Part shown: positions 1 through 44,890 of the stretch, piece after piece
Layout: each line of letters opens with the position of its first letter
Numbering within the stretch: the stretch's first letter is position 1
Program-made: the position numbers and the translations under genes
Notes under the pieces: generated by a model
The model's input: the letters and a program-made list of their open reading frames with translations, nothing else
What the model was told of the DNA's origin: nothing
Databases searched by the model: none
From: Lachnospiraceae bacterium
GTDB lineage: Bacteria; Bacillota; Clostridia; Lachnospirales; Lachnospiraceae
Direction: 5' to 3'
NCBI GenBank assembly: GCA_017480565.1
Contig: JAFVAL010000039.1
Span: 1 to 54,554 of the forward strand
DNA length: 54,554 nucleotides

Positions 1-226
1 CAAAAAAGTTTGGAGGATTAACAATACATGTCTCGGACACTCCTTTGCTTGCAAAGTGGAGTTGATGTGACTGTATTGTTCGTTGCGACAGCAACGCTCC
101 AAACTTTTATCATATACCTATATTCGCGGGAGTGACGATGGAAGGCCGCTTACGTGTCCGTTACTGGCGAAACGAAACCGCAAGGTGTCCCTGCCAAGAT
201 CGATGATGCGACGATCTTGCGTCGCT
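1..226 (+). repeat. Structured dispersed element, copy 1 (5' part outside window)
   Basis: This is one of three related elements in the window; only the inner domain and the 3' tail are present here. Stem P1 pairs AAAAGTTTGGAG (4-15) with its complement at 97-108. Stem P2 pairs 20-28 with 72-80 and carries an apical hairpin TTTG-CTTG-CAAA at 44-55. Hairpin P3 is CGTTGC-GACA-GCAACG at 81-96. The conserved octamer TCGCGGGA follows at 124-131, then a tail with CTTACGTGTCCGTTACTGGC and a last hairpin GCGACG-ATCTTG-CGTCGC ending at 225. The stems differ in sequence from those of the copies near 41.5 and 42 kb but sit in the same places. The tail ends directly at the rsmI stop codon on the opposite strand. 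Confidence 0.7.
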
Positions 227-30423: not shown

Positions 30424-33400
30424 TTATCTGCGTACTTTTCTGCTGCGTTCATTTGCAACAATCATCATACCAACCAAACCGCAAAGGCTGGAAAGCATCA
30501 TGATGGTCCAGATGAGCAGATGCGATTCATCTCCGGTCTTCGGCTCAAGCGGCTTCTGGCCGGTAGGATCCTCTACATTTGCATCATCTTCCACGGTCGG
30601 GTTATCCGGATCTTCCGTCTCGCCCTTCGCAGTTACCTCATTGAGCACCTTGCCTGCCTTGACATCGGCCGCTGTCACAACATACTTTGTCGTGAAGGTC
30701 TTGCTCTCGCCAGGCTCCAGCGTCTCAATGGTCCATGTATCACCCGTAAGCGGATCTTCCACCACGACATTGGTCAAAGTTCCCTCGCCGGTGTTGGTCA
30801 CGACGATCTCATACTCGATGGTCTCGCCTTCGTAATATGCCTTACCCTCTTTCGGCTTGCTTACGGTCTTCTTCTCGACCTCGATCGCATACTTCGGAGG
30901 CTGATAAACGTTGGTAAACGAACCGCCCGCGGAGTAAGTGCCGGTGACATTTAATGTACCATCACCGTTATCCTCAACCGTTACTGTTAAGGTCTCGGTA
31001 TGCTCATCATAAGTCACGAATTTCTGTTCATCGTTGACTTCCTTGATGGTATAGGTAAATGTCTTGCCTGCATCTGCCAGCTCATAGGCGATAGCATCGA
31101 ATTCCACCTTTCCGGAAGCATCGTTGGTCTTGGTCTGCAGAAGCGTTCCGTCGGCATCATACAGTTCGAAGGTGAACTGACCGTCCGCCAAATCTTTGCC
31201 TGTCAGTGTCTTCGTCACGGAAGGTGTAAATTCGCCGTCCGCGTCGTAGGTATTGACAAAGCCCTCGGTCTGGCTGTAGGAAACAGATGCCACCAGATTG
31301 CCGTTCAGATCATCGGTCACAGTGATCGTAACATCAATCACCTGCGTGTCATAAGTAACACCGCCCAGGCTGCCAACGGTCTCGGAAATCGTGTACTTGT
31401 AGGTTCCGACTTCCTCAAATGTCAGTGCACTGAAGGTTACGGTACCGTCCGCTGCGTTCTTGACGTTCTCCACCAGCTGTCCGTCCTCATCCAGAAGCGA
31501 GAAGCTGAACTCTCCATCTTCTAGATCGCGGCCTTCCAGGGTCTTCTTCGTCTCGATCACTGCGCTTACCGGTGCAGGCTCATACGTGTTGATAAATTCC
31601 TTCTTGCCGCTGTAGATCAGTTCTGCAACGAGATGTCCGTTCAGATCATCCGTGACAATCACGGTTACCTCTACAACGCCTTCGTCATAGGTGACACCGC
31701 CAAGTCCACCGTCGACCTCAACGATCGTGTACTTGTACTCGCCAACCTGATCATAGGTCTGCTCTGCAAATGTAACGGTTCCGTCTGCTCCGTTCGTAGC
31801 CTCTGCGACAACATTTCCTTCCTCGTCAATGAGCTGGAAGGTAAACTCACCCTCATTCAGCGCACGGCCTTCCAGGGTCTTTGTCACCTCAGGCGCAGCC
31901 TTTACAGGCTCCGGAACGTAGGTGTTTTCAAATGTCTTATCCTCAGGATAGATGACCGTTGCGGTATACAATCCGGTCTCCTCACTGTAGGTTACTTCTA
32001 CCTTCACAATGATTGCAGACTCATCATAGGTGACACCGCCAAGGCTGCCGGAATCCTCTGTGATCTTATAATAATGCGTTCCAACTGCATCATATGTGAT
32101 CGCATCAAAGTTTACAAGGCCAGCTGCATCGTTGGTTGCGTGAAGCACCAGAGCTGCCTCTGTCTCTCCCTCATCACCTTCTGCAATCGGTTCAGTCGGA
32201 TCGGTCGGGTCTGTAGGCTCTTCCTCCTCAGCAGTTGCCTCAGCAGACTCATTTGCAGCTTCTACCGCAGGCTCAGCCACAGCTTCTTCTTCCTTGGATT
32301 CTGTCAGTGCTTCGGTCACAGCCTCAGTCACGACTTCCGCTGCATCTGCAACCTTGCCGAAGATACTCTTGAACCATCCGATGATTCCGGAAGCTTCCTT
32401 CTCTTCAGGGTCCGTAATCGCATCCGTTGTCGGTTCCTCGACGATCGGCTCTTTCTCTTTCACCGGCTCGACGATCTCAGCCTTGGTTTCTTCCTCCGTC
32501 GTGGTCTCTTCCTTGGTCGTGACCTCTTCCGTGGTTGCTTCCTCGGTGGTCGTCTCCTCGACAGTCTCTCCCTCGGTTGTGATCTCTTCCTCGGTGGTCG
32601 TTCCTTCTGTGGTTGCTTCTTCGGTCGTGGTCTCCTCCGCGGTCTCACCCTCGGTCGTCTCGGTTGTCGTTCCTTCCTCAACCGTCGTCTCGGTGGTTAC
32701 CTCCTCGGTTGTACCCTCTTCCGTGGTCGCTTCCTCAGGCGTGGTCGCTTCCTCGGACTTCTCATCCTTCTTCACGGACAGCGGATTACCATTCTCGTCG
32801 ACTTCCGTCAGCGTGAAGCTGAACTCGCCACCATTCAGGTCACGGCCCGTCAGCACCTTGTTTACACTGATCACAGCTTCTGTCGGATCCGGCGTGTAGG
32901 TGTTGGTGATGATGTTGTTCTCCGGGTCGTAGGTGATCACAGCAGTCATCGTACCATCGGTATCATCCGTCACCGTAATGGTTACATTGATTACCTCAGA
33001 GCTATAGGTGATGTTCTTGTTATCGCCCGCGGTCTCAGTAATCGTGTACTTGTAAACGCCAGGAGCGGTGAAGGTCAAATCACTGAACTTGACGTTACCA
33101 TTTGAATCCGTCGTCTTGGACTCAATTTCCTTCCCAGTCTCATCCTTCAGGACAAATGTAAATGCTTCGCCGTTCAGATTGCGGTTCTTTAAGGACTTAT
33201 TTGCCTCAGGCGCAGCCGTGATCGGCTCTACCCCGTAGGTATTGGTAAATGTTACCGCCGTTTCATCTGGTGTAACCTCAGCCACCAACTGACCTGTGCC
33301 GTTATCGGTTACAACCACGGTGATGGTCTTACCTGTCGAAGCAGCTTCATCGTTCGTAACGCCAGGTACGCTTCCAGATTCCTTCACTGTGTAGACGTAG

Positions 33401-36400
33401 GTTCCCGGTACTGTAAATGTAATATCGCCGAACTCGTAGATGTCGGTCTCGCCTTCCCTCAGGAAAGTCGAGCTATTGCGGATCGTCGTGTGCTCAGGCA
33501 TCGGGATCTCGACACCCTCAGGCCCGCTCGTTCCTTCAATCGTAAACGTAAATGAGTCTTCGATATTCGCGCCAATCAGATCATCTGGTACCACATAATC
33601 TTTATGTACAGGCGGATCATACTTCACAGGCTTTGCACTGTAGGTGTTGACGAAGTTTGTGATCTGGTCACCAGAGGTAATTGTTGCTACCAGATGTCCT
33701 TCACCATCATCCGTTACAGTTACAGTTACGGTGTACTCTGTGATTCCGTTGGTAACACCATCCACCGAACCTTCCTCGGTAACAGTGTAGATGTAGATAC
33801 CAGGCTTGTCAAAACTCAATGCATCAAACATTACAGCTGTACCGTTGCCGTCGGGGTTCTTGACTTTCTGAATTTCTTTTCCTCCTGCATCCTTTAAGAT
33901 CAGTGTGTACTGGCCGGTTACATCAGGAGCTTTGCTATAGCTCTGAGCTTCCAATGTCTTGGATGCGCCAAGCTGCAGGGTTGTGGGCTCAGCACTATAA
34001 GTGTTTGTAAAGGTTAAAGGATTCTCGGTCGTCGAGCTAACGCTCTTGATTACCAGCTTGCCTGTACCATCATCTCCCACTTCGACTGTGACAGTCTTAC
34101 CGGTTGCCGCTGCCGCGTCATTGGTGACGCCTGCGATCTCGCCGGTCTCTGTCACGGTATAGGTGTAGGTTCCAGGTGCTGTGAACTCGAAGTCGCCGAA
34201 AGTGATTACCAGATTGTCCTGGTCAACGGTTCCCGTCATCGTCTCCGCTTCCGGTGCACCGTCTTTCGCTTCTACATCAATCGTGTAGCTCCACTCTGCA
34301 GGTCCTTCAAGGTCTTCCGGCACTTCCAAAACCTTCTTTACAGGGAAGCTTGCTGTTGCAGGTTCTACCGCGTAGGTATTCGTGAAAGTTAAAGGATTCT
34401 CGGTCGTCGAGCTAACGCTCTTGATCACCAGCTTACCAGTACCATCATCATCCACTTCGATTGTGACAGTCTTGCCTGTTGTCGCTGCCGCGTCATTGGT
34501 GACACCTGCGATCTCGCCGGTCTCTGTTACTGTATAAGTGTAGGTTCCAGGTGCCGTGAACTCGAAGTCGCCGAAAGTGATTACCAGATTGTCCTGGTCA
34601 ACGGTTCCCGTCATCGTCTCCGCTTCCGGTGCATCGTCATTTGCTTCTACATCAATCGTGTAGCTCCACTCTGCAGGTCCTTCAAGGTTTTCTGGTACTT
34701 CTAAGACCTTCTTCACAGGGAAGCTTACCGTTACAGGTGTCGGAGTGTAAGTATTGGTAATCGTAAAGGTTACGGTACCGTCCTCAGCAACTTCCTTCAC
34801 AGGGCCAGTCTTTGTATAACCCGCAGGGACTGCAGTCTCATCAGCCGTATAAGAAATCTCAGTACCGTTATTGTACTTCGGAAGGTTCTCCCAAGTATAG
34901 GTCCACTCTCCATCCTCAGGCAGCGTAACAGGATCACCACTCGCAACTCCGTCAGCGGTCAGCTGGACGTTGATCGAGGTCGGGCGGATTCCGCCAATGT
35001 TATCGTCATCATCCCAAACCTTCACGACAGTGACTTCTGTCACTTCCGGCTCATGAGTGTTGGTGATGGTTCCATGATCCTTTGCAGGACTTCCCGTAGT
35101 GGTGTAGCCATCAATCTCGGACTCTGTTACAGTATATTCAACTTCCTCACCGTTACTGAAACGAGGCAGGCCAGTATAGGTAATAGTATAGGTACCATCG
35201 CCATTGTCAACGATAGTCGGCTCTTTGCCCTCGACCTCTGGAGAGAGAGTCAGCTTAGCTTTGAGTTCTTCAGCTGTCAGACGAATGCCATCCTGATTTT
35301 TGGCATCATCCCAAACTTTCGTGATCTCGAGGTCAGTAAGTTGGTAGTCATTTGTATAGGTGACTACATAACTAGTGTTTGTATTCTCGACCGTACCGGT
35401 AGAGGTCTTGCCTCCCTTAAACGTCGAATCCTTACCACTTGTGAGTTCTGCCTTGTTAAAGGCAAAGCCATCTGCCAAGTCACCCTCAGCAAATGTGTAT
35501 GTGGTACCGGAAGGCAGGTTGGTGAAACGTAGGTTCCAACCATCCTTCATATCGACAGTGATCGCCGTTCCGCTCGGAGCATAGTAATATCCAGAATCGG
35601 AAGGGCCGGTCGCACCAGTGACATTTGCATCCATGACCGTGGCACCTGCCTTGGTGTCATAGATAGAGAACCAAACATAGTAATCGGAATTCGTGTCGTC
35701 CGCACTTCCATTTTCAGCCTTGGAGTTATTAACCGTCAGATTGAACGGGAAAGTTGCATCTTCCGGAGCATCCTCACCTGTGACAACCTTTGTCAAGTTC
35801 AGGTTAGAACGACGATAGTTATATGCATCGAGGCTGGCTGCAGATGTGCCATTCGAATAATATGTCTTGCCATTGATGATGTAAGTGGCTGCACCCGTCG
35901 GTGCTGGATGATTTTCATCAACCAGTGTGAGCATCGTCAGGGTACCATCGATAAGCATCGGATGCACAACGGGGGATACAAGCTCCCAGTTGTACTGTTC
36001 TGAACCAAGCTCAGCGAAAGTGAAGTCATGGCCTTCTGCTCCCGGCAGTACCTGGCCATTCTTGATGATACCAGGAGAGATGAAGATATCCTCGGCCGTC
36101 CACTCAGGGTAAGATAAAGTGACCTTGTGGAATTCTCCATCATCCATAAGGACAGTCATCTCGATCGAGTTAACCGCACGGGCATCGAGTTCGTTCTCCC
36201 ATGCTTTGGATACCGACATCGTTGCAGAATCAGTACGAACGGGGTCAGGGTTCGTATACGAAACCGCATCCTCATCCTCTTCGGTTCGGGTGTCATCCCA
36301 GTCAAGCGTAGCGTTGGTGTTGGTACGCAGAGAGTAAGTTCCATTACCATTGTCGACAATATATTTCTGAATCTCAGGATCCAGCTCCTCGTACGTGATG

Positions 36401-37590
36401 TCTCCATTCTTCAGTTGTGCAATAATATCGTAAGTATACTGGCTGGGATAGCAGTCAAAGGTGACAGTATATTTCACACCGTCATCAAGCACACCAACCG
36501 AGGAGAGATCCCACTCGACCGCGCCGTTTACGAACTCTGCCGGAGGAGCATCAGTCCACTCCACACCATCCTTGTAGTACTTGAAGGAAGAGGTGTCGAC
36601 CTCAAGCAGTTCTACAACAACACCGGTAGAGGCCTTCACCTGATTGGTGGTACCGTCCTCGATCTCAACGGATCCAATACCCGCCTTCTCGATCTGAGCG
36701 AGAATAGTGGAAAGAGCATTCTGAAGGTCCGTCGTGTTCGCAGCGGAGAAGTAGTTGCCCGCAGGCGCGCCAACATCCGTAATCAGGCTCTGCATACGGT
36801 CAACGTTGCCGTAGGCACCGATGGTATAAAAATGGTCGGCACCAACAGCCGTTGCAAGAGACCGCGCATCATCAACAGCGTGGTCATAGCAACGTGCAAT
36901 TGTCGTAGCAGCTGTGATGCCCCCAACCGTTTGAGAATCGCTGCCATTACCATAGACACCATAGGTATTGTAGTAATAGTTGTCCATGGGATTATAGTTG
37001 CCGCGTGTATTACGGAATGTAGGGTTGCCGTCGGAGACAAAAATTACATAGGTAGGATCCTCGTCACCGTAGTTTATCCCTGCAGCGTCCTGAAGCGCGT
37101 CTTCCCAGTTGGTACCGCCATCTGCATTCAGCCCGTTGACGGATGCTGAGAATGTATTATAACTTGTTGTTGGCTGCTGGGTGACTGCTCCGGTTGTGGA
37201 GAATCCAACAAGCGCCATCTCAACCAGCTCAGGAAATTCCGTTGTGTTGTAGTTAAAAAGCGATCTGGCGAGGTTGTTGACTGCGCTCTGCGCAGCTGCC
37301 ATTCTCGTCTGCGATCCATATCCGCCAGTTCGGTTTCCCATGGAGCCAGAGTGGTCCAGGATCACCGTGACGTTGACAGGATTTGGTTTTCTCTCAGATT
37401 CGCCAACCACATCAAGCGACAGTGTATAAGTGCCATCGTGATTGTCAGTGAGAAGTTTCGTGTGGGGTGGTGTGCCACCAGCCGCCGCACGAGTGAGTTT
37501 CGGGATTGCAAGAGAAAGGATCATAACCAGCACTAGAAGCAAGCTGACTATGACCGCACCTTTCTTTGCATTTCCTTTCTTTCTTTTCAT
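30424..37590 (-). CDS. Giant VWA/FctA-type cell-wall adhesin (2388 residues)
   Basis: An exported surface protein. A basic N-terminus and hydrophobic helix (about residues 11-36) form the signal. A von Willebrand A domain (about 70-305) has the MIDAS DHSGSMG at residue 79. Next come a DUF7601-like domain, two Cna-B domains (LEITKVWDD, VTVVKVWDD; about 720-940) and nine FctA/Spy0128-type domains (about 950-2225), each starting with an isopeptide-type Lys and ending FTNTY/FVNTY. A DUF11 domain (about 2235-2335) and a C-terminal PKTG (2350-2353), hydrophobic helix and RSRKVRR follow. The sixth FctA domain is interrupted by a Thr/Glu-rich tract (about 1600-1710). AGGAGGAGAGTC sets the start. No sortase is in the window. 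A role in adhesion is inferred. Confidence 0.92.
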   Translation of the reverse strand: MKRKKGNAKKGAVIVSLLLVLVMILSLAIPKLTRAAAGGTPPHTKLLTDNHDGTYTLSLDVVGESERKPNPVNVTVILDHSGSMGNRTGGYGSQTRMAAAQSAVNNLARSLFNYNTTEFPELVEMALVGFSTTGAVTQQPTTSYNTFSASVNGLNADGGTNWEDALQDAAGINYGDEDPTYVIFVSDGNPTFRNTRGNYNPMDNYYYNTYGVYGNGSDSQTVGGITAATTIARCYDHAVDDARSLATAVGADHFYTIGAYGNVDRMQSLITDVGAPAGNYFSAANTTDLQNALSTILAQIEKAGIGSVEIEDGTTNQVKASTGVVVELLEVDTSSFKYYKDGVEWTDAPPAEFVNGAVEWDLSSVGVLDDGVKYTVTFDCYPSQYTYDIIAQLKNGDITYEELDPEIQKYIVDNGNGTYSLRTNTNATLDWDDTRTEEDEDAVSYTNPDPVRTDSATMSVSKAWENELDARAVNSIEMTVLMDDGEFHKVTLSYPEWTAEDIFISPGIIKNGQVLPGAEGHDFTFAELGSEQYNWELVSPVVHPMLIDGTLTMLTLVDENHPAPTGAATYIINGKTYYSNGTSAASLDAYNYRRSNLNLTKVVTGEDAPEDATFPFNLTVNNSKAENGSADDTNSDYYVWFSIYDTKAGATVMDANVTGATGPSDSGYYYAPSGTAITVDMKDGWNLRFTNLPSGTTYTFAEGDLADGFAFNKAELTSGKDSTFKGGKTSTGTVENTNTSYVVTYTNDYQLTDLEITKVWDDAKNQDGIRLTAEELKAKLTLSPEVEGKEPTIVDNGDGTYTITYTGLPRFSNGEEVEYTVTESEIDGYTTTGSPAKDHGTITNTHEPEVTEVTVVKVWDDDDNIGGIRPTSINVQLTADGVASGDPVTLPEDGEWTYTWENLPKYNNGTEISYTADETAVPAGYTKTGPVKEVAEDGTVTFTITNTYTPTPVTVSFPVKKVLEVPENLEGPAEWSYTIDVEANDDAPEAETMTGTVDQDNLVITFGDFEFTAPGTYTYTVTETGEIAGVTNDAAATTGKTVTIEVDDDGTGKLVIKSVSSTTENPLTFTNTYAVEPATASFPVKKVLEVPEDLEGPAEWSYTIDVEAKDGAPEAETMTGTVDQDNLVITFGDFEFTAPGTYTYTVTETGEIAGVTNDAAAATGKTVTVEVGDDGTGKLVIKSVSSTTENPLTFTNTYSAEPTTLQLGASKTLEAQSYSKAPDVTGQYTLILKDAGGKEIQKVKNPDGNGTAVMFDALSFDKPGIYIYTVTEEGSVDGVTNGITEYTVTVTVTDDGEGHLVATITSGDQITNFVNTYSAKPVKYDPPVHKDYVVPDDLIGANIEDSFTFTIEGTSGPEGVEIPMPEHTTIRNSSTFLREGETDIYEFGDITFTVPGTYVYTVKESGSVPGVTNDEAASTGKTITVVVTDNGTGQLVAEVTPDETAVTFTNTYGVEPITAAPEANKSLKNRNLNGEAFTFVLKDETGKEIESKTTDSNGNVKFSDLTFTAPGVYKYTITETAGDNKNITYSSEVINVTITVTDDTDGTMTAVITYDPENNIITNTYTPDPTEAVISVNKVLTGRDLNGGEFSFTLTEVDENGNPLSVKKDEKSEEATTPEEATTEEGTTEEVTTETTVEEGTTTETTEGETAEETTTEEATTEGTTTEEEITTEGETVEETTTEEATTEEVTTKEETTTEEETKAEIVEPVKEKEPIVEEPTTDAITDPEEKEASGIIGWFKSIFGKVADAAEVVTEAVTEALTESKEEEAVAEPAVEAANESAEATAEEEEPTDPTDPTEPIAEGDEGETEAALVLHATNDAAGLVNFDAITYDAVGTHYYKITEDSGSLGGVTYDESAIIVKVEVTYSEETGLYTATVIYPEDKTFENTYVPEPVKAAPEVTKTLEGRALNEGEFTFQLIDEEGNVVAEATNGADGTVTFAEQTYDQVGEYKYTIVEVDGGLGGVTYDEGVVEVTVIVTDDLNGHLVAELIYSGKKEFINTYEPAPVSAVIETKKTLEGRDLEDGEFSFSLLDEDGQLVENVKNAADGTVTFSALTFEEVGTYKYTISETVGSLGGVTYDTQVIDVTITVTDDLNGNLVASVSYSQTEGFVNTYDADGEFTPSVTKTLTGKDLADGQFTFELYDADGTLLQTKTNDASGKVEFDAIAYELADAGKTFTYTIKEVNDEQKFVTYDEHTETLTVTVEDNGDGTLNVTGTYSAGGSFTNVYQPPKYAIEVEKKTVSKPKEGKAYYEGETIEYEIVVTNTGEGTLTNVVVEDPLTGDTWTIETLEPGESKTFTTKYVVTAADVKAGKVLNEVTAKGETEDPDNPTVEDDANVEDPTGQKPLEPKTGDESHLLIWTIMMLSSLCGLVGMMIVANERSRKVRR
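34010..34759 (-). repeat. Two nearly identical 375-bp domain repeats
   Basis: Two in-frame units, 34010-34384 and 34385-34759 approximately, each encode a 125-residue FctA-type domain with SFPVKKVLEVPE and a TYTYTVTETGEIAGVTNDAA segment. They differ at only a few codons, far closer than the other seven FctA domains in the protein, and imply a recent duplication. Confidence 0.9.
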
Positions 37591-40101: not shown

Positions 40102-41367
40102 ATGTTTAAAAACCTCACCAAAGAAGAGCGTGCATGGGTGCTTTACGATGTCGGCAATTCCGCATTTACCATGCTTGCGTGTTCTCTGATTCCGATCTGG
40201 TTTAAGAGCCTTGCCATCGGAACAAATCCCGGCCAGATCACCTCTGACCAGGCAACCGCATATTATTCTATTGCCATCGCGGTCGTCACCGTCATCGTCG
40301 CCCTCTTAGGCCCGATCCTTGGAGCGATCGCAGACCACAAGGATACCAAGAAGATTTTCTTCACGACCGCTGTCGCACTCGGTGTGATCGGCTGCATCAT
40401 CAACGGTTTCGCAACCAGCTGGGTGGCTTTCATCGTCATTTACATTCTGGCAAAGATCTTCTACCAGGCATCCCTGACATTTTATGATTCCATGTTAAAT
40501 GATGTCACCACCGAGGAGCGCATGGACCAGGTCTCTTCTTACGGCTATGCCTGGGGCTACATCGGCTCTTGCATTCCGTTTACCGTGGCACTCATTGCCT
40601 ATGTGTTAGGCCCTGATATGCTTGGCAAGATCCCCGGCAATCTCTCCAAGATCATCGGCTTTACCGTCACCGGTGTGTGGTGGTTCTTAGTAACGCTTCC
40701 TCTTATCAAGAACTACAAGCAGGTCAACTATGTCGAGGCCGAGAAGCATGCGATCGGCAAGGCATTTGCACAGATCGGCCGCACTTTAAAGAAGATCGCC
40801 CTGGAAGATAAGAAGGTTCTCTTCTTCTTAATCGCTTTCTTCCTCTACATCGACGGTGTCGGAACGATCATCGATAACTGCATCAACATCGGTACCGATT
40901 TAGGTCTGAACACGGTCGGTCAGGTCATCTTCCTGCTCGCAACCCAGGTCGTCGCATGGATCGGCTCTCTGGTCTTTGCAAGTCTGTCAAAGAAGTATGA
41001 TACCGTTCCGCTGATCTTAGTCTGCATCGTCGGATACTTCTGCGTCTGCCTGTATGCGCTGACGCTCTCCACGATCTGGCACTTCGGTATCCTCGCCTTC
41101 GGCGTTGGCTGCTTCCAGGGTTCGATTCAGTCCCTGTCGCGTTCGTATTTCTCGAAGATCATCCCGCCGGAGAACTCCGGTGAGTACTTCGGAATCTACG
41201 ATATCTTTGCGAAGGGCGCTTCCTTCTTAGGCTCCGCAGTCATCGCATGGGTGAAGCTCGCCGGCGGCACGATCAACATCGCAGTCGCTTCCCTGGCAGT
41301 CTTCTTCGCACTCGGATTCATCTTCTTAAAGATCTCCGACAAGCAGCCGATGAAGAATCGTGGATAA
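40102..41367 (+). CDS. MFS permease of the UMF1 type
   Basis: The 421-residue integral membrane protein has 11-12 hydrophobic segments. It begins TKEERAWVLYDVGNSAFTML, the characteristic start of the UMF1 (Atg22-like) group, and has GPILGAIADHKDTKK (the conserved MFS loop 2-3 motif). A central loop (KQVNYVEAEKHAIGKAFAQI) separates the halves. AAGGAG precedes the ATG. It probably forms an operon with pncB, 31 nt apart; nicotinate or another precursor uptake is inferred from that. A structured repeat element follows its stop codon by about 15-30 nt. Confidence 0.9.
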   Translation: MFKNLTKEERAWVLYDVGNSAFTMLACSLIPIWFKSLAIGTNPGQITSDQATAYYSIAIAVVTVIVALLGPILGAIADHKDTKKIFFTTAVALGVIGCIINGFATSWVAFIVIYILAKIFYQASLTFYDSMLNDVTTEERMDQVSSYGYAWGYIGSCIPFTVALIAYVLGPDMLGKIPGNLSKIIGFTVTGVWWFLVTLPLIKNYKQVNYVEAEKHAIGKAFAQIGRTLKKIALEDKKVLFFLIAFFLYIDGVGTIIDNCINIGTDLGLNTVGQVIFLLATQVVAWIGSLVFASLSKKYDTVPLILVCIVGYFCVCLYALTLSTIWHFGILAFGVGCFQGSIQSLSRSYFSKIIPPENSGEYFGIYDIFAKGASFLGSAVIAWVKLAGGTINIAVASLAVFFALGFIFLKISDKQPMKNRG

Positions 41368-41400
41368 ACATCCTGTCGTCACTTGTGCATGTACATATTT

Positions 41401-41712
41401 ACATAGGCTCGTCGCGTCTTCAATCTTGGCGGGGACGACTTGCGTCTTCGGTTGATGACGTAATGGACGCGTAAGAGGCCTTCCATCGGGCTCCCGCGAA
41501 TATAGTGTCATACATAAAGCTTGGGGTGTTGCTTACGCAACGCACGACACAACACAGAGCCGCTTTCATGCAAGCATGAGCGACCCTGAGAATTGTGTCG
41601 TTACAACCCCAAGCTTTTTTCAATTTACGTATTCCCGCGAGTCGCACCGATGCGCGCCCTCTAAACGCCGACGTCATCAAAGACCCCGCAGATCGAAGCC
41701 CGCCTCCTCGTT
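41401..41712 (-). repeat. Structured dispersed element, copy A
   Basis: Read on the minus strand, outer stems pair CTTCGATCT (complement of 41690-41698) with AGATTGAAG (41418-41426), GCGGGG with CCCCGC (41684-41689 / 41429-41434) and TTGATGACGT with ACGTCATCAA (41671-41680 / 41452-41461). Two TCGCGGGA boxes flank the inner domain. P1 is AAGCTTGGGGT (41606-41616 / 41517-41527), P2 is 41593-41601 / 41544-41552 with the apical hairpin TCATG-CTTG-CATGA (41566-41579), and P3 is GTTGC-GTAA-GCAAC (41528-41541). It faces the end of the MFS gene. Confidence 0.8.
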
Positions 41713-41859
41713 CGTAGTGAATCGCAAGGATCAACGATCCTCTCCTTCAGGTATTACCCACACGGGATAGTCTCGCATAGTTGTTAGGAAAGTCAGGTTA
41801 GACCTGCCGTCTTAGATACACTTCCCTAGGGAGGGTTCCTGGCTCGCGCACGCTGGCTT

Positions 41860-42158
41860 ACGAGGAGGCGGCCTTCAATCTGCGGGGTCTTTGCGGCAGT
41901 CGGCACTTAGCGTGGTGAGGATTCTCGCGGGATGAACATAAAAAAGGACTTGGGGATGAACACAGATCAAATCGGACTATGATGAGCTTGCTCATCTATA
42001 GGACGTTTGATCGGTGTTGGATTGCGTTAGCAATCTCCCAAGTCCGTATGATTATACTATAGTCGCGGGAGCCTCAGCCGCTTATGTGTCCGCTACTGAC
42101 GCAACTGAAGACGCAAGTCGTCCCCGCCAAGATTGAAGACGCGACGAGTCTATGCAAA
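41860..42158 (+). repeat. Structured dispersed element, copy C
   Basis: Outer stems are CTTCAATCT/AGATTGAAG (41873-41881 / 42130-42138), GCGGGG/CCCCGC (41882-41887 / 42122-42127) and TTGCGGCAGT/ACTGACGCAA (41891-41900 / 42095-42104). TCGCGGGA occurs at 41925-41932 and 42063-42070. P1 is GGACTTGGGGA/TCCCAAGTCC (41946-41956 / 42036-42045); P2 is 41959-41971 / 42006-42018 with apical GATGAG-CTTG-CTCATC (41981-41996); P3 is GATTGC-GTTA-GCAATC (42020-42035). It is in opposite orientation to copy A; the 147 bp between them (41713-41859) hold no gene. Confidence 0.8.
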
Positions 42159-42189
42159 GATGTGCGCTGGCAAAACAAGGATGCGATGC

Positions 42190-43920
42190 TCACTCCCTCA
42201 CATATCTGAACTCATTTCCCTTGACATAGATCGCAATCGTCTCTCCTTCGGAAACCAAAAGCATCTCAATCACGTCCACATACTTCGCGGAATAGATCTC
42301 GCCCGTCGTGTCCACCAGATACAGGTACGTATCTCCGCCGCGATCGATCGTCTGAAGCTTCGCAACCGTCACGGTTTTCTTCTCAAACTCGCTTAAGTCC
42401 ACTTCGCCGTAGCCGTTCACCACCGTGGACTCATCGTTCGCTTCTTCCTGCGAAATGTCCCCGCGCAACAGCGCTTGATACTTTGCGATACAGTCGTTCT
42501 GCTTCGTCGCGGTCACCACCATGTTGTACTGCGAAACATTGACGCAGGCATACAGCTTCACGAGGTTTGACTTGTCGCGCAGCACCATGATGTAGGTCGG
42601 TACATCATCAATCGTAATCAGGCTCGGGAAGGAAGCCGCATAGCCCTTCTCCTGCACTTCGCCTTCCGCCGCACTCATCGCTGAGAACTCATTTGCGCCA
42701 GGCGCATCGATGAAAATCGTCTCGCCCGTCCGTTCATTTGCCATGATAAAACCGATGTTGGATGCATCACCATTCACACTCGTGATGCCGGTATAAATGT
42801 AGATGTCATTGTCCTTCGCGATGTAGCCGAAATCCGCCTCAAAGCTGTCGTCTTCCGGATCTCCGCCCGTCGGTGCGCTTGTCACCTCGCGGCAGCCCAC
42901 CTGCCCAAAAATCGAGTTAAAGAAGCCCTTCTGCAGCTGCGCGTAGTCATTATACTGCCGGCAAATGAGGTCGCCCGGGATCGCAACGTCGACCCAGTCG
43001 GGGACATTTGCCAGAGAAAGTCGCTCCGTCGCCCCGCCCACAGGGTCAACCAAAAGCACACCGGTCACTCTCTCACCGCCGAAGAGGAAGATCGAGTGCG
43101 TGATCACAGGCGCAACATACCAAGGCTTGCCTTCCTCATCCACCTCAAAATGCGGCGAATCAAACATCACCGTCGGATAGTGGAAGCGCAGATATCTCGT
43201 CAGATCCTCGCCAAAATATGCCGAAGGCACGTAGCGCAGACCCGCGGAAAGCTCCTGATAATCCGCCTCCATCGACACCGGGTCCACCGTCACATAGCCC
43301 GGAATGCCCGAACCACGGTTGTTGATCCATTTGAAAAATCCACCGTAGCTTAAAGGCGCAACCTTCATCGGATGATTCTTCCAGTTGATCTGCGTGTAAG
43401 CCGTATCCCACAGCTCATACTGCGAAACCACGTGGCTTAGCGTACCGATCTTACGATCGCCAAGCGAGCGTGCGGAATTCGTATCCATCAGCGCAATCGC
43501 ATCCGCTTCCTCTGCGGAAGGAATGTCCGTCACCTCACCTGCCTGCACCGCCAGAATCTGGCTGTAAGCCTTCGCATGGAAGAGGCGGCTGGAAAAGATC
43601 TGGCAAAGAATAAACAGGACGATCAGACCGCCCAGCGCAAATGCCGCATATTTTGCAATCTTGCCCGGCAGATCGTCGCTCTTATGCTTCGCAAATCTTC
43701 CTTCCACGACCACCTTGTCACCCTTTTTCGACTTCATTTGCACCACAGGGCTCTGGAACAGCGAGAAGCCGAACGTGACGAAGACACACGCCGCAATGAC
43801 CATCAGGTAAAACCAAAACGCGCCTGACTTGAAATTGATCGGCGGGCACATCACGTAAAAGACAAGCGCCGCAAAGATCACTGAGATCAGGGCAGGGATT
43901 AGAATACGTTTACTTTTCAT
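42190..43920 (-). CDS. Multi-pass N-terminal membrane protein of unknown function
   Basis: The family is not recognised. The 576-residue protein has three transmembrane helices in the first 110 residues (about 5-24, 33-53, 88-108) with a basic cytoplasmic loop, then a ~460-residue extracytoplasmic region. That region contains SRSLGDRKIGTLSH-type and PGYVTVDPVSMEADY segments, a probable beta-rich domain with ITHSIFLFGGERVTGVLLVDPVGG, and a C-terminal YLVDTTGEIYSAKYVDVIEMLLVSEGETI strand-rich domain. The ATG at 43920 follows GGAGGAGATCTTCT; the open frame continues upstream into the MBL gene but without a site. It lies 28 nt after the MBL-rubredoxin gene on the same strand. Confidence 0.8.
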   Translation of the reverse strand: MKSKRILIPALISVIFAALVFYVMCPPINFKSGAFWFYLMVIAACVFVTFGFSLFQSPVVQMKSKKGDKVVVEGRFAKHKSDDLPGKIAKYAAFALGGLIVLFILCQIFSSRLFHAKAYSQILAVQAGEVTDIPSAEEADAIALMDTNSARSLGDRKIGTLSHVVSQYELWDTAYTQINWKNHPMKVAPLSYGGFFKWINNRGSGIPGYVTVDPVSMEADYQELSAGLRYVPSAYFGEDLTRYLRFHYPTVMFDSPHFEVDEEGKPWYVAPVITHSIFLFGGERVTGVLLVDPVGGATERLSLANVPDWVDVAIPGDLICRQYNDYAQLQKGFFNSIFGQVGCREVTSAPTGGDPEDDSFEADFGYIAKDNDIYIYTGITSVNGDASNIGFIMANERTGETIFIDAPGANEFSAMSAAEGEVQEKGYAASFPSLITIDDVPTYIMVLRDKSNLVKLYACVNVSQYNMVVTATKQNDCIAKYQALLRGDISQEEANDESTVVNGYGEVDLSEFEKKTVTVAKLQTIDRGGDTYLYLVDTTGEIYSAKYVDVIEMLLVSEGETIAIYVKGNEFRYVRE

Positions 43921-43948
43921 AGAAGATCTCCTCCCCCGGGCCATTTCA

Positions 43949-44890
43949 TCAAGCCTTATTAAACTTCTCTTTCCCTTGCCGGCATCTCGGACATCTCCAG
44001 TCCTCCGGCAGATCCTCGAACGCGACCCCGTCATGCTCCGCAGGATCATAGACATATCCACAGATCGAGCAGACGTACTTGCCGGAAGCTTCCATCTTGC
44101 TAAAGTCCACCTCTGCAAATACCGTCGGCACCGGATGGTCAAGATCCATCACACGCTTCGCCTCCAGGTTCTCGTAGCCCTGCGGTGTGTGCGTGCCCAT
44201 GTAAACCGTCGGATGATTCTTTACAAACTCACGCACGCGATCCATCGTCTCGCGGTCAGCGGCCAGGTCGTCGAATACCACCGAGAGCTTGTTCGCATAA
44301 AGCGCTTCATCAACATACGTGATATCACCGTGAATCATGTAGAACAGGCCCTCATTCTCAACAATAATGATACTGTTACCGTTCGTGTGACCCTTCGCTT
44401 TGATGAAATAGATCCCGTCCCGGATCTTTTGACTTGCCGGGAAGTTGTAGTACGCACCGTCCGTAAAGGTTACCGGCACCAGGTTCTCAAGCCCCTGCAG
44501 TTCTGCAGCTTCCATCTCATCTGCATTCACATAAATCTTCGCATTCGGGAACTGACTTAAACATCCCGAATGATCACTGTGTTTATGCGTCAAAAGGATG
44601 GTTGTCACTTGCTCCGGCCGATAGCCCAGCGCTGCAAATGCTTCCATATAGCTGCAAATGTCCTTGCCTGTATACAGAACACTATTCTCGTCCGGCACCT
44701 CCTCCGGTGTCCCCGCCGGCAGGCCGGTGTCCACTAAGATCACCTCATCCCCGGTATCAATCAGATAATTCTGCAGACTGCCGCGATATCTCACGTTCTT
44801 ATCGAACTTCTCAGGCCCCTCTTCCCCGCCAAACACGAACGGCTGAGTGTAAAATCCATCTGTCCGAAACTTAACCGCTTTAATTTCCAT
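43949..44890 (-). CDS. MBL-fold metallohydrolase with C-terminal rubredoxin domain
   Basis: The 313-residue protein has a metallo-beta-lactamase domain (about residues 1-250): [16 protein letters not shown], the metal motif [13 protein letters not shown] (HxHxDH, about 99-111), [23 protein letters not shown] and MGTHTPQG. The last ~45 residues are a rubredoxin: [20 protein letters not shown], then [14 protein letters not shown], with four Cys for one iron. MBL domains of this kind resemble lactonases or diiron flavoprotein-like oxidoreductases; the attached rubredoxin suggests an electron-transfer or oxygen/ROS-related role. There is no flavodoxin domain. Function remains inferred. Confidence 0.88.

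Follow-up and report, generated by a model that had tools for sequence, protein, structure and literature searches.

Between two convergent genes of a Lachnospiraceae genome lies a long imperfect palindrome whose two arms can be drawn as the same set of nested stems, which raises the question of what kind of element it is and what it might do at the ends of its neighbors. The window, that is, the whole stretch of DNA analyzed here, comprises 54,554 nt of contig JAFVAL010000039.1 (assembly GCA_017480565.1), in which a first-pass annotation made from the letters and their open reading frames had placed a candidate new RNA family at 41401..42158. Our reading, to which we assign a probability of about 0.55, is that the element belongs to a two-armed intergenic repeat, species-specific and present in many copies, which carries a Clostridiales-1-like domain in each arm, acts as a two-way transcript end and has spread by copying.

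A two-armed palindrome between convergent genes

The palindrome occupies 41393-42163, slightly wider than the extent first given. Two arms of ~300 nt, A on the minus and C on the plus strand, are inverted around a 148-nt middle and share 70% identity over 330 aligned positions, in keeping with their original description as copies of one ~300-nt layout. The inverted repeats have an outer (41393-41479/42077-42163) and an inner part (41661-41711/41860-41910). The flanking genes at 40102-41367 (+) and 42190-44142 (-) converge on the element, leaving gaps of 25 and 26 nt; the left one encodes a transporter-like protein of 421 aa (Atg22/MFS by Pfam), and the 650-aa right-hand ORF had no Pfam match at E<=1e-5. 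Folding of the whole element is far better than that of 20 shuffles (z of -18 and -22), mostly because the arms are inverted repeats. Elsewhere in the window, the minus strand of 30424-37590 holds a very long ORF of 2388 aa. The features of the element are as follows.

41393..42163, no strand assigned: whole two-armed element, from inverted repeats I1-I3
41393..41711, minus strand: arm A, sense strand running from the center outwards
41712..41859, no strand assigned: middle segment M
41860..42163, plus strand: arm C, sense strand running from the center outwards
41492..41642, minus strand: three-way junction of arm A with both TCGCGGGA boxes (142 bits with model R1, whose training set includes this copy)
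41516..41527, minus strand: one side of P1 in arm A, partner 41606-41617 (inverted repeat I8)
41544..41601, minus strand: P2 of arm A, CTTG loop at 41571-41574 on the minus strand, 2-nt bulge on the 3' side
41528..41541, minus strand: P3 of arm A, GTAA loop at 41533-41536 on the minus strand
41523..41609, minus strand: sub-threshold match of arm A to RF01699 Clostridiales-1 (23.8 bits, E 0.0099)
41923..42070, plus strand: three-way junction of arm C with both TCGCGGGA boxes (109 bits with model R1; likewise a training row)
41946..42045, plus strand: P1 of arm C, enclosing P2 and P3 (41946-41955 with 42037-42045)
41959..42018, plus strand: P2 of arm C, CTTG loop at 41987-41990 (inverted repeat I9, 41959-41971/42006-42018)
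42020..42035, plus strand: P3 of arm C, GTTA loop at 42026-42029
41633..41640, minus strand: inner TCGCGGGA box of arm A, read from the sequence
41492..41499, minus strand: outer TCGCGGGA box of arm A, read from the sequence
41925..41932, plus strand: inner TCGCGGGA box of arm C, read from the sequence
42063..42070, plus strand: outer TCGCGGGA box of arm C, read from the sequence
41437..41446, minus strand: small outer hairpin of arm A with a GCAA (GNRA) loop, with variants in other aligned copies
42110..42119, plus strand: small outer hairpin of arm C with a GCAA (GNRA) loop, from the alignment of copies
1..214, plus strand: third unit, an A-type arm truncated by the contig end

The stems quoted in the first-pass annotation (41452-41461/41671-41680, P1 at 41516-41527/41606-41617 and P2 at 41959-41971/42006-42018) are all present, as are the paired boxes in both arms, and the copy it had seen at the start of the window is the third unit. 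It had also named HEARO/omega-RNA and IStron-type elements, which are structured non-coding mobile elements, as first comparisons. Scanning the window at Rfam gathering scores returned one tRNA only, and the largest ORF overlapping the arms has 104 aa; these comparisons were abandoned.

Structure and covariation of the repeat unit

Aligning 23 units from this genome gave a constant order from the center outwards: a TCGCGGGA-like box, P1, P2, P3, the P1 partner and the second box. On the strand read in that direction, P1 would enclose two hairpins, a long P2 capped by the mini-loop C(TT)G and a short P3. The conservation of loops on one strand that had been reported from three copies extends to the larger set: P2 ends in a GCTTGC loop in 18 units, in GTTTAC in four and in GTTTGC in one, with a bulge of 1-2 nt on the 3' side of the stem, while the P3 loops are of GNNA or GNA type (GTAA 9, GAAA 4, GTTA 3, GATA 2, GACA 2, ATTA 1, GTA 1; one uncalled).

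Compensatory change in the stems, the other main claim of the first-pass annotation, was borne out by two-sided changes in 31 of 42 pairs. In the alignment of 23 units 85.4% of cells are paired, compared with 71.1% in shuffles and with 34.6-43.0% when the partners are slid by 1-3 columns. Of five covariation measures, four lie above every one of 500 shuffles; the remaining one counts further pair types and stands at 50 against 58.6 in shuffles, a value reached by all 500. A tree-aware null, run on the same 23 rows with a custom script modeled on R-scape, gave a mixed answer: none of 10,731 column pairs was significant when all were tested against all, and seven of 42 were when the test was limited to the proposed pairs. 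With copies that cluster into a small number of groups, the tree-aware null is the harsher one.

Copies in the genome

The window's genome (G000; 2.78 Mb in 76 contigs) contains 48 matching DNA pieces, including one at another locus that is 97% identical across 283 nt. As many copies lie at the contig ends of this assembly, the copy number is a lower bound. Model R1, built from the 23 units, gives 24 unit matches in this genome at E < 1e-11, of which 23 are the rows it was trained on, plus a weaker partial match on contig C45 (42.6 kb). Besides the window, sites that have both arms include those on contigs C12, C17 and C9, and on C10 as far as the contig end. Other sites hold a single arm, a left-right hybrid (C37) or the outer ends alone as a short hairpin (C71). 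On C45 (42.4 kb; L035 1240-1330) the left arm lacks the three-way junction and has one TCCCGCG box where others have two, an arrangement that suggests either insertion of the junction with duplication of the box or its loss by recombination between boxes. On C10 (L030 1513-1366) the middle is 72% identical to 41712-41859 but has the opposite orientation with respect to the arms around it, which could reflect a flip between the inner inverted repeats.

These partial and rearranged forms bear on the idea that each arm is a small-RNA gene, the two being divergently transcribed out of the middle and ending antisense to the 3' ends of the neighbors. Such an arrangement would account for the outward course of both sense strands, and Rfam types RF01699, the family discussed below, as an sRNA gene. 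Yet some sites keep a single arm, the C10 middle is turned around between its arms, and a consensus scan of 41250-42300 found no sigma-70-type promoter; we consider this explanation unlikely.

Outside G000, a DNA search of 98 genomes (G000 with its relatives) gave a single 27-base match, and at the sensitivity of that search the repeat as such is species-specific. A phage or plasmid origin was set aside after one full copy gave no blastn match in either collection. A 19-mer of the left arm led to three stretches in named genomes of unrelated phyla, where similarity covers 13-22 bases and was taken as chance.

Terminal inverted repeats and many copies, both seen here, are features of MITEs, as are target-site duplication and a related transposase; paired inverted units, dispersed and intergenic, are those of REPIN/BIME-type repeats. 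The window element differs from the latter in being much larger and in its three-way junctions; no RAYT gene was found in the 76 contigs, and a RAYT/REPIN system was rejected. A search confined to Y1 transposase families found a sole match in G000, a below-cut-off IS200-like TnpA remnant in a 53-aa frame (L071, contig C48). Among literature titles and abstract openings on bacterial MITEs at convergent genes and on dispersed structured RNA in Lachnospiraceae, we found no description of the element.

Relationship to Clostridiales-1

In a 1-kb scan against 4227 Rfam families, arm A matched RF01699 (Clostridiales-1) with P2 aligned on P2 and P1 on P1, at a score (23.8 bits, E 0.0099) short of the gathering cut-off of 48 bits. 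Comparison with Rfam thus pointed to a named family, below threshold, and the proposal of a new RNA family holds as far as the dispersed structured element goes; an isolated family is not supported, since the core resembles a known one. G000 has no RF01699 match at E<=0.01 and no unit of its own at the cut-off, and at E<=1 there was none at nine other loci of the repeat or at four loci (L105, L133, L135, L139) of genome G283, described below. Among ten related loci scanned by E-value, RF01699 was found in two (L155 and L161, 44 bits each, again with a cut-off of 48); both copies at L107 scored 35 bits, and L106 and L108 gave none.

Clostridiales-1 itself matches 219 of 397 genomes of the family, 176 of them over the cut-off, and none of 14 control genomes. 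At E<=0.001, six genomes picked for completeness or high copy number contain 92, 31, 10, 21, 20 and 110 matches. The passage on it in Weinberg et al. (2010; PMC2864571) describes it as probably an RNA and probably not cis-regulatory, from Clostridiales and human gut. A function was not found described in the titles and abstract openings of the literature. The window units share with it a P1 around a long P2, the GCUUGC loop (GCTTGC in 22 of 27 RF01699 copies), the 3'-side bulge followed by P3, and the occurrence of many copies per genome in this bacterial family. In contrast, Clostridiales-1 has a large P3 and a P4 before the 3' strand of P1, whereas the 23 units have a short P3 alone and no P4. 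The window units also form outward-facing pairs within a larger palindrome between convergent genes, unlike the RF01699 copies, whose neighbors (both called for 24 of 27) are oriented +/+ in 11 cases, -/+ in nine, +/- in two and -/- in two and are thus not mainly convergent. Tandem direct arrays of RF01699 occur in G039 (C4:37397-37842, three copies) and G309 (C1:541241-541584, two copies).

On the 27 RF01699 loci, model R1 gave six matches at E<=1 (E 0.03-0.26), all at the P2 of the copy and on its strand, judged by position, and none at the other 21. The best blastn rows between the units and RF01699 copies share the 16-nt P2 apex (E 0.001). Structural kinship of the window arms with Clostridiales-1 is well supported, and common descent, as opposed to convergence, would be its explanation. 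We place the repeat near Clostridiales-1 and not within it, because its score stays under the cut-off and P4 is absent. On the best reading, what is new is a two-armed, reduced and strongly diverged variant, and what is known is Clostridiales-1, itself functionally unexplained.

A similar repeat in another genus

Searching 397 family genomes with R1 at E<=0.01 returned G000 and three others, about the number expected by chance, so that the search of related genomes with a model of the repeat alone reached little beyond its source. One of the three, G283, belongs to another genus and has a dispersed palindromic repeat of its own, with 56 matching DNA pieces (many places being counted twice, as the query held two arms). 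The GCTTGC loop is present in 14 of 16 extracted units, several of which have adjoining GNNA-type hairpins, and outward-facing pairs lie between convergent genes at L105 and L133. The two repeats thus have in common the convergent-gene sites, some outward pairs, the P2 loop, the 3' bulge and GNNA-type loops; the G283 repeat differs by an extra hairpin ahead of P2. At L105 (2049-4335) two 440-nt inverted arms, 1.4 kb apart between convergent genes, enclose an ORF of 255 aa, methyltransferase-like by its sequence, and this may be a cargo-bearing form.

Model R2 was trained on 13 G283 units alone, among which L143 (14.5 bits) was matched in part and L145 was a truncated row; since R1 picked and aligned these rows, R2 is not fully independent of G000. 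On the window R2 scored 63.7 bits for arm A and 29.2 bits for arm C. At E<=0.01 its matches covered 139 of 397 genomes, counting G000 and G283, compared with five (best E 6.8e-4) for decoy R3, which consists of the R2 sequences reversed and has 29 pairs to the 31 of R2; few candidates were scored per genome in these searches. At the 27 RF01699 loci, 15 of 18 R2 matches fell on P2 and on the RF01699 strand, covering 14 loci and one tandem neighbor copy, and at E<=1 the other 13 loci had no R2 match at P2. Across genera, 13 of 14 stem pairs covaried significantly and no other of 496 did (78 distinct rows), in an alignment whose rows were registered by best pairing, which favors the stem.

These numbers weigh on whether hairpins with CTTG and GNNA loops are simply frequent, terminator-like structures whose resemblance to Clostridiales-1 is a matter of chance. 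An RF01699 score far under the cut-off and the near-chance yield of R1 (three genomes besides G000) are what convergence would predict, as are the short stretches shared in the best blastn rows, which reach 16 nt with RF01699 copies and at most 26 nt, at a best E of 0.006, with G283 units. Against it stand the excess of R2 over its decoy and the side of the P2 bulge, constant over the four sets compared below, and we judge convergence improbable.

Relatives at transcript ends

From the R2 matches we examined the 26 best-scoring loci fetched, a non-random sample of 25 loci from other genomes plus the G000 copy that follows a tRNA-Arg gene. Twelve of these lie 12-34 nt behind a stop codon on the same strand, and five behind a tRNA gene. 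Pfam names eight of the 12 upstream proteins (L7/L12, EF-Tu, S9, a GroEL-type chaperonin, S18, YchF, a response regulator and a carboxylase domain protein); the rest were named by sequence alone. A further G000 copy follows a gene whose end resembles prolyl-tRNA synthetase, again a name from sequence. The best-scoring relatives of the window units are thereby tied to transcript ends of core genes, and Clostridiales-1 is tied to a broader structural class within one bacterial family, with up to 110 matches in one genome. The original observation is sound, and more interesting in this context than as a lone novelty.

We tentatively suggest that structured elements at transcript ends may form a superfamily throughout this bacterial family, with Clostridiales-1 as merely its best-conserved branch; they would be located behind housekeeping and tRNA genes in some genomes and present in others as dozens of mobile or copied intergenic elements, including two-armed bidirectional forms. 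Its members might be RNA parasites or 3'-end RNA tools, all recognized by one kind of protein through the C(UU)G loop and the 3' bulge, and these two features offer a concrete handle for pulling down a binding protein. Several genera show an ACGCG-N-AGCAATGAGCC(ATGC)-like leader upstream of P2, directly behind stop codons or tRNAs and outside model R2. Three R2 matches (L149, L156 and L162) are adjoined by a repeat that we take to be CIRCE-like (TTAGCACT...GAGTGCTAA), and L149 and L156 have a short divergent ORF upstream, in contrast to the usual 3'-end position.

The strand that folds

Going down P2 from its loop, the first interruption is a 3'-side bulge in all 23 units of the window's repeat and in all 16 G283 units (one misregistered), both sets gathered by DNA similarity. 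All 26 other loci have the same bulge, as do 23 of 27 RF01699 copies (four have none); these sets were gathered by models that allow it (2 nt in R2, a 1-nt 3' bulge in the RF01699 consensus). In no set does it lie on the 5' side. Mismatches read on the sense strand and summed over the four sets are biased as well, with G.T to A.C at 43:9 and purine.purine to pyrimidine.pyrimidine at 86:11; the rows are related and the counts hence not independent. The 3'-side bulge and the strand-biased mismatches indicate that the strand running from the center outwards folds singly, as RNA or as single-stranded DNA.

In P1 and P3 the changes are almost only full pair switches, and the stems are nearly perfectly Watson-Crick. 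Quasipalindrome correction acting on an inverted repeat, with no selection for structure, could produce such stems. It would not be expected to leave bulges and loops conserved on one strand or purine.purine mismatches, and we regard it as a very unlikely source of the complementarity.

A second process at the DNA level is harder to dismiss. A transposase or recombinase may recognize the hairpins in single-stranded DNA, in the manner of REPIN or attC, and they would then have no function as RNA. The palindromic two-armed layout, the dispersed near-identical copies and the full pair switches of P1 and P3 fit this view, and G.T makes up 1.5-3.5% of P2 pairs (1.5% in the window's own repeat), which is low for structured RNA. 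Loops of the GNNA, GNA and C(TT)G types are stable in DNA too. What speaks against it is the position of the relatives in transcripts, behind stop codons and tRNA genes, and the lack in G000 of an HUH (Y1) enzyme beyond the IS200-like remnant. We prefer RNA over pure single-stranded DNA because G.T exceeds A.C and because the relatives sit at transcript ends, and consider the DNA-level element somewhat unlikely.

A proposed two-way transcript end, probably spread by copying

In our preferred reading, each arm would carry a reduced relative of Clostridiales-1, three-way, without P4 and strongly diverged, and the pair of arms would form a two-way transcript-end module for convergent genes. Consistent with such sites, 23 of 27 flanks (ORFs of 100 aa or more, no further than 400 nt away, with the C71 outer-end hairpin included) face the element by their 3' end. 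Each arm may act as an intrinsic terminator of incoming transcription, in which P1 is followed by a T run on the strand of the neighboring gene. Of 23 units, 22 have a run of at least four T behind the P1 core on the incoming side and four have one on the outgoing side, part of each run also pairing within P1. The contrast is smaller for total T after P1, which favors the incoming side in 14 of 23 (mean 6.3 vs 5.2 of 9). The consensus scan of 41250-42300, whose loop limit of 8 nt excludes P1, gave one weak terminator-like site in the middle, and a similar number in shuffles. The Clostridiales-1-like junction could be an insert or an ancestor with a role of its own, perhaps protein binding. The two-armed form provides a natural test of whether convergent transcription ends there.

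Near-identical copies at unrelated loci suggest that the repeat has spread by copying, through an enzyme that the Y1 search did not reveal. By eye, no target-site duplication was seen in the copy junctions, and six further candidate empty sites gave three partial matches and no clean junction. The sister species G001 likewise offered no clean empty site for the window copy, and its right-hand gene lies on another contig; behind the left gene of G001, an ordinary terminator-like hairpin can be made out by eye.
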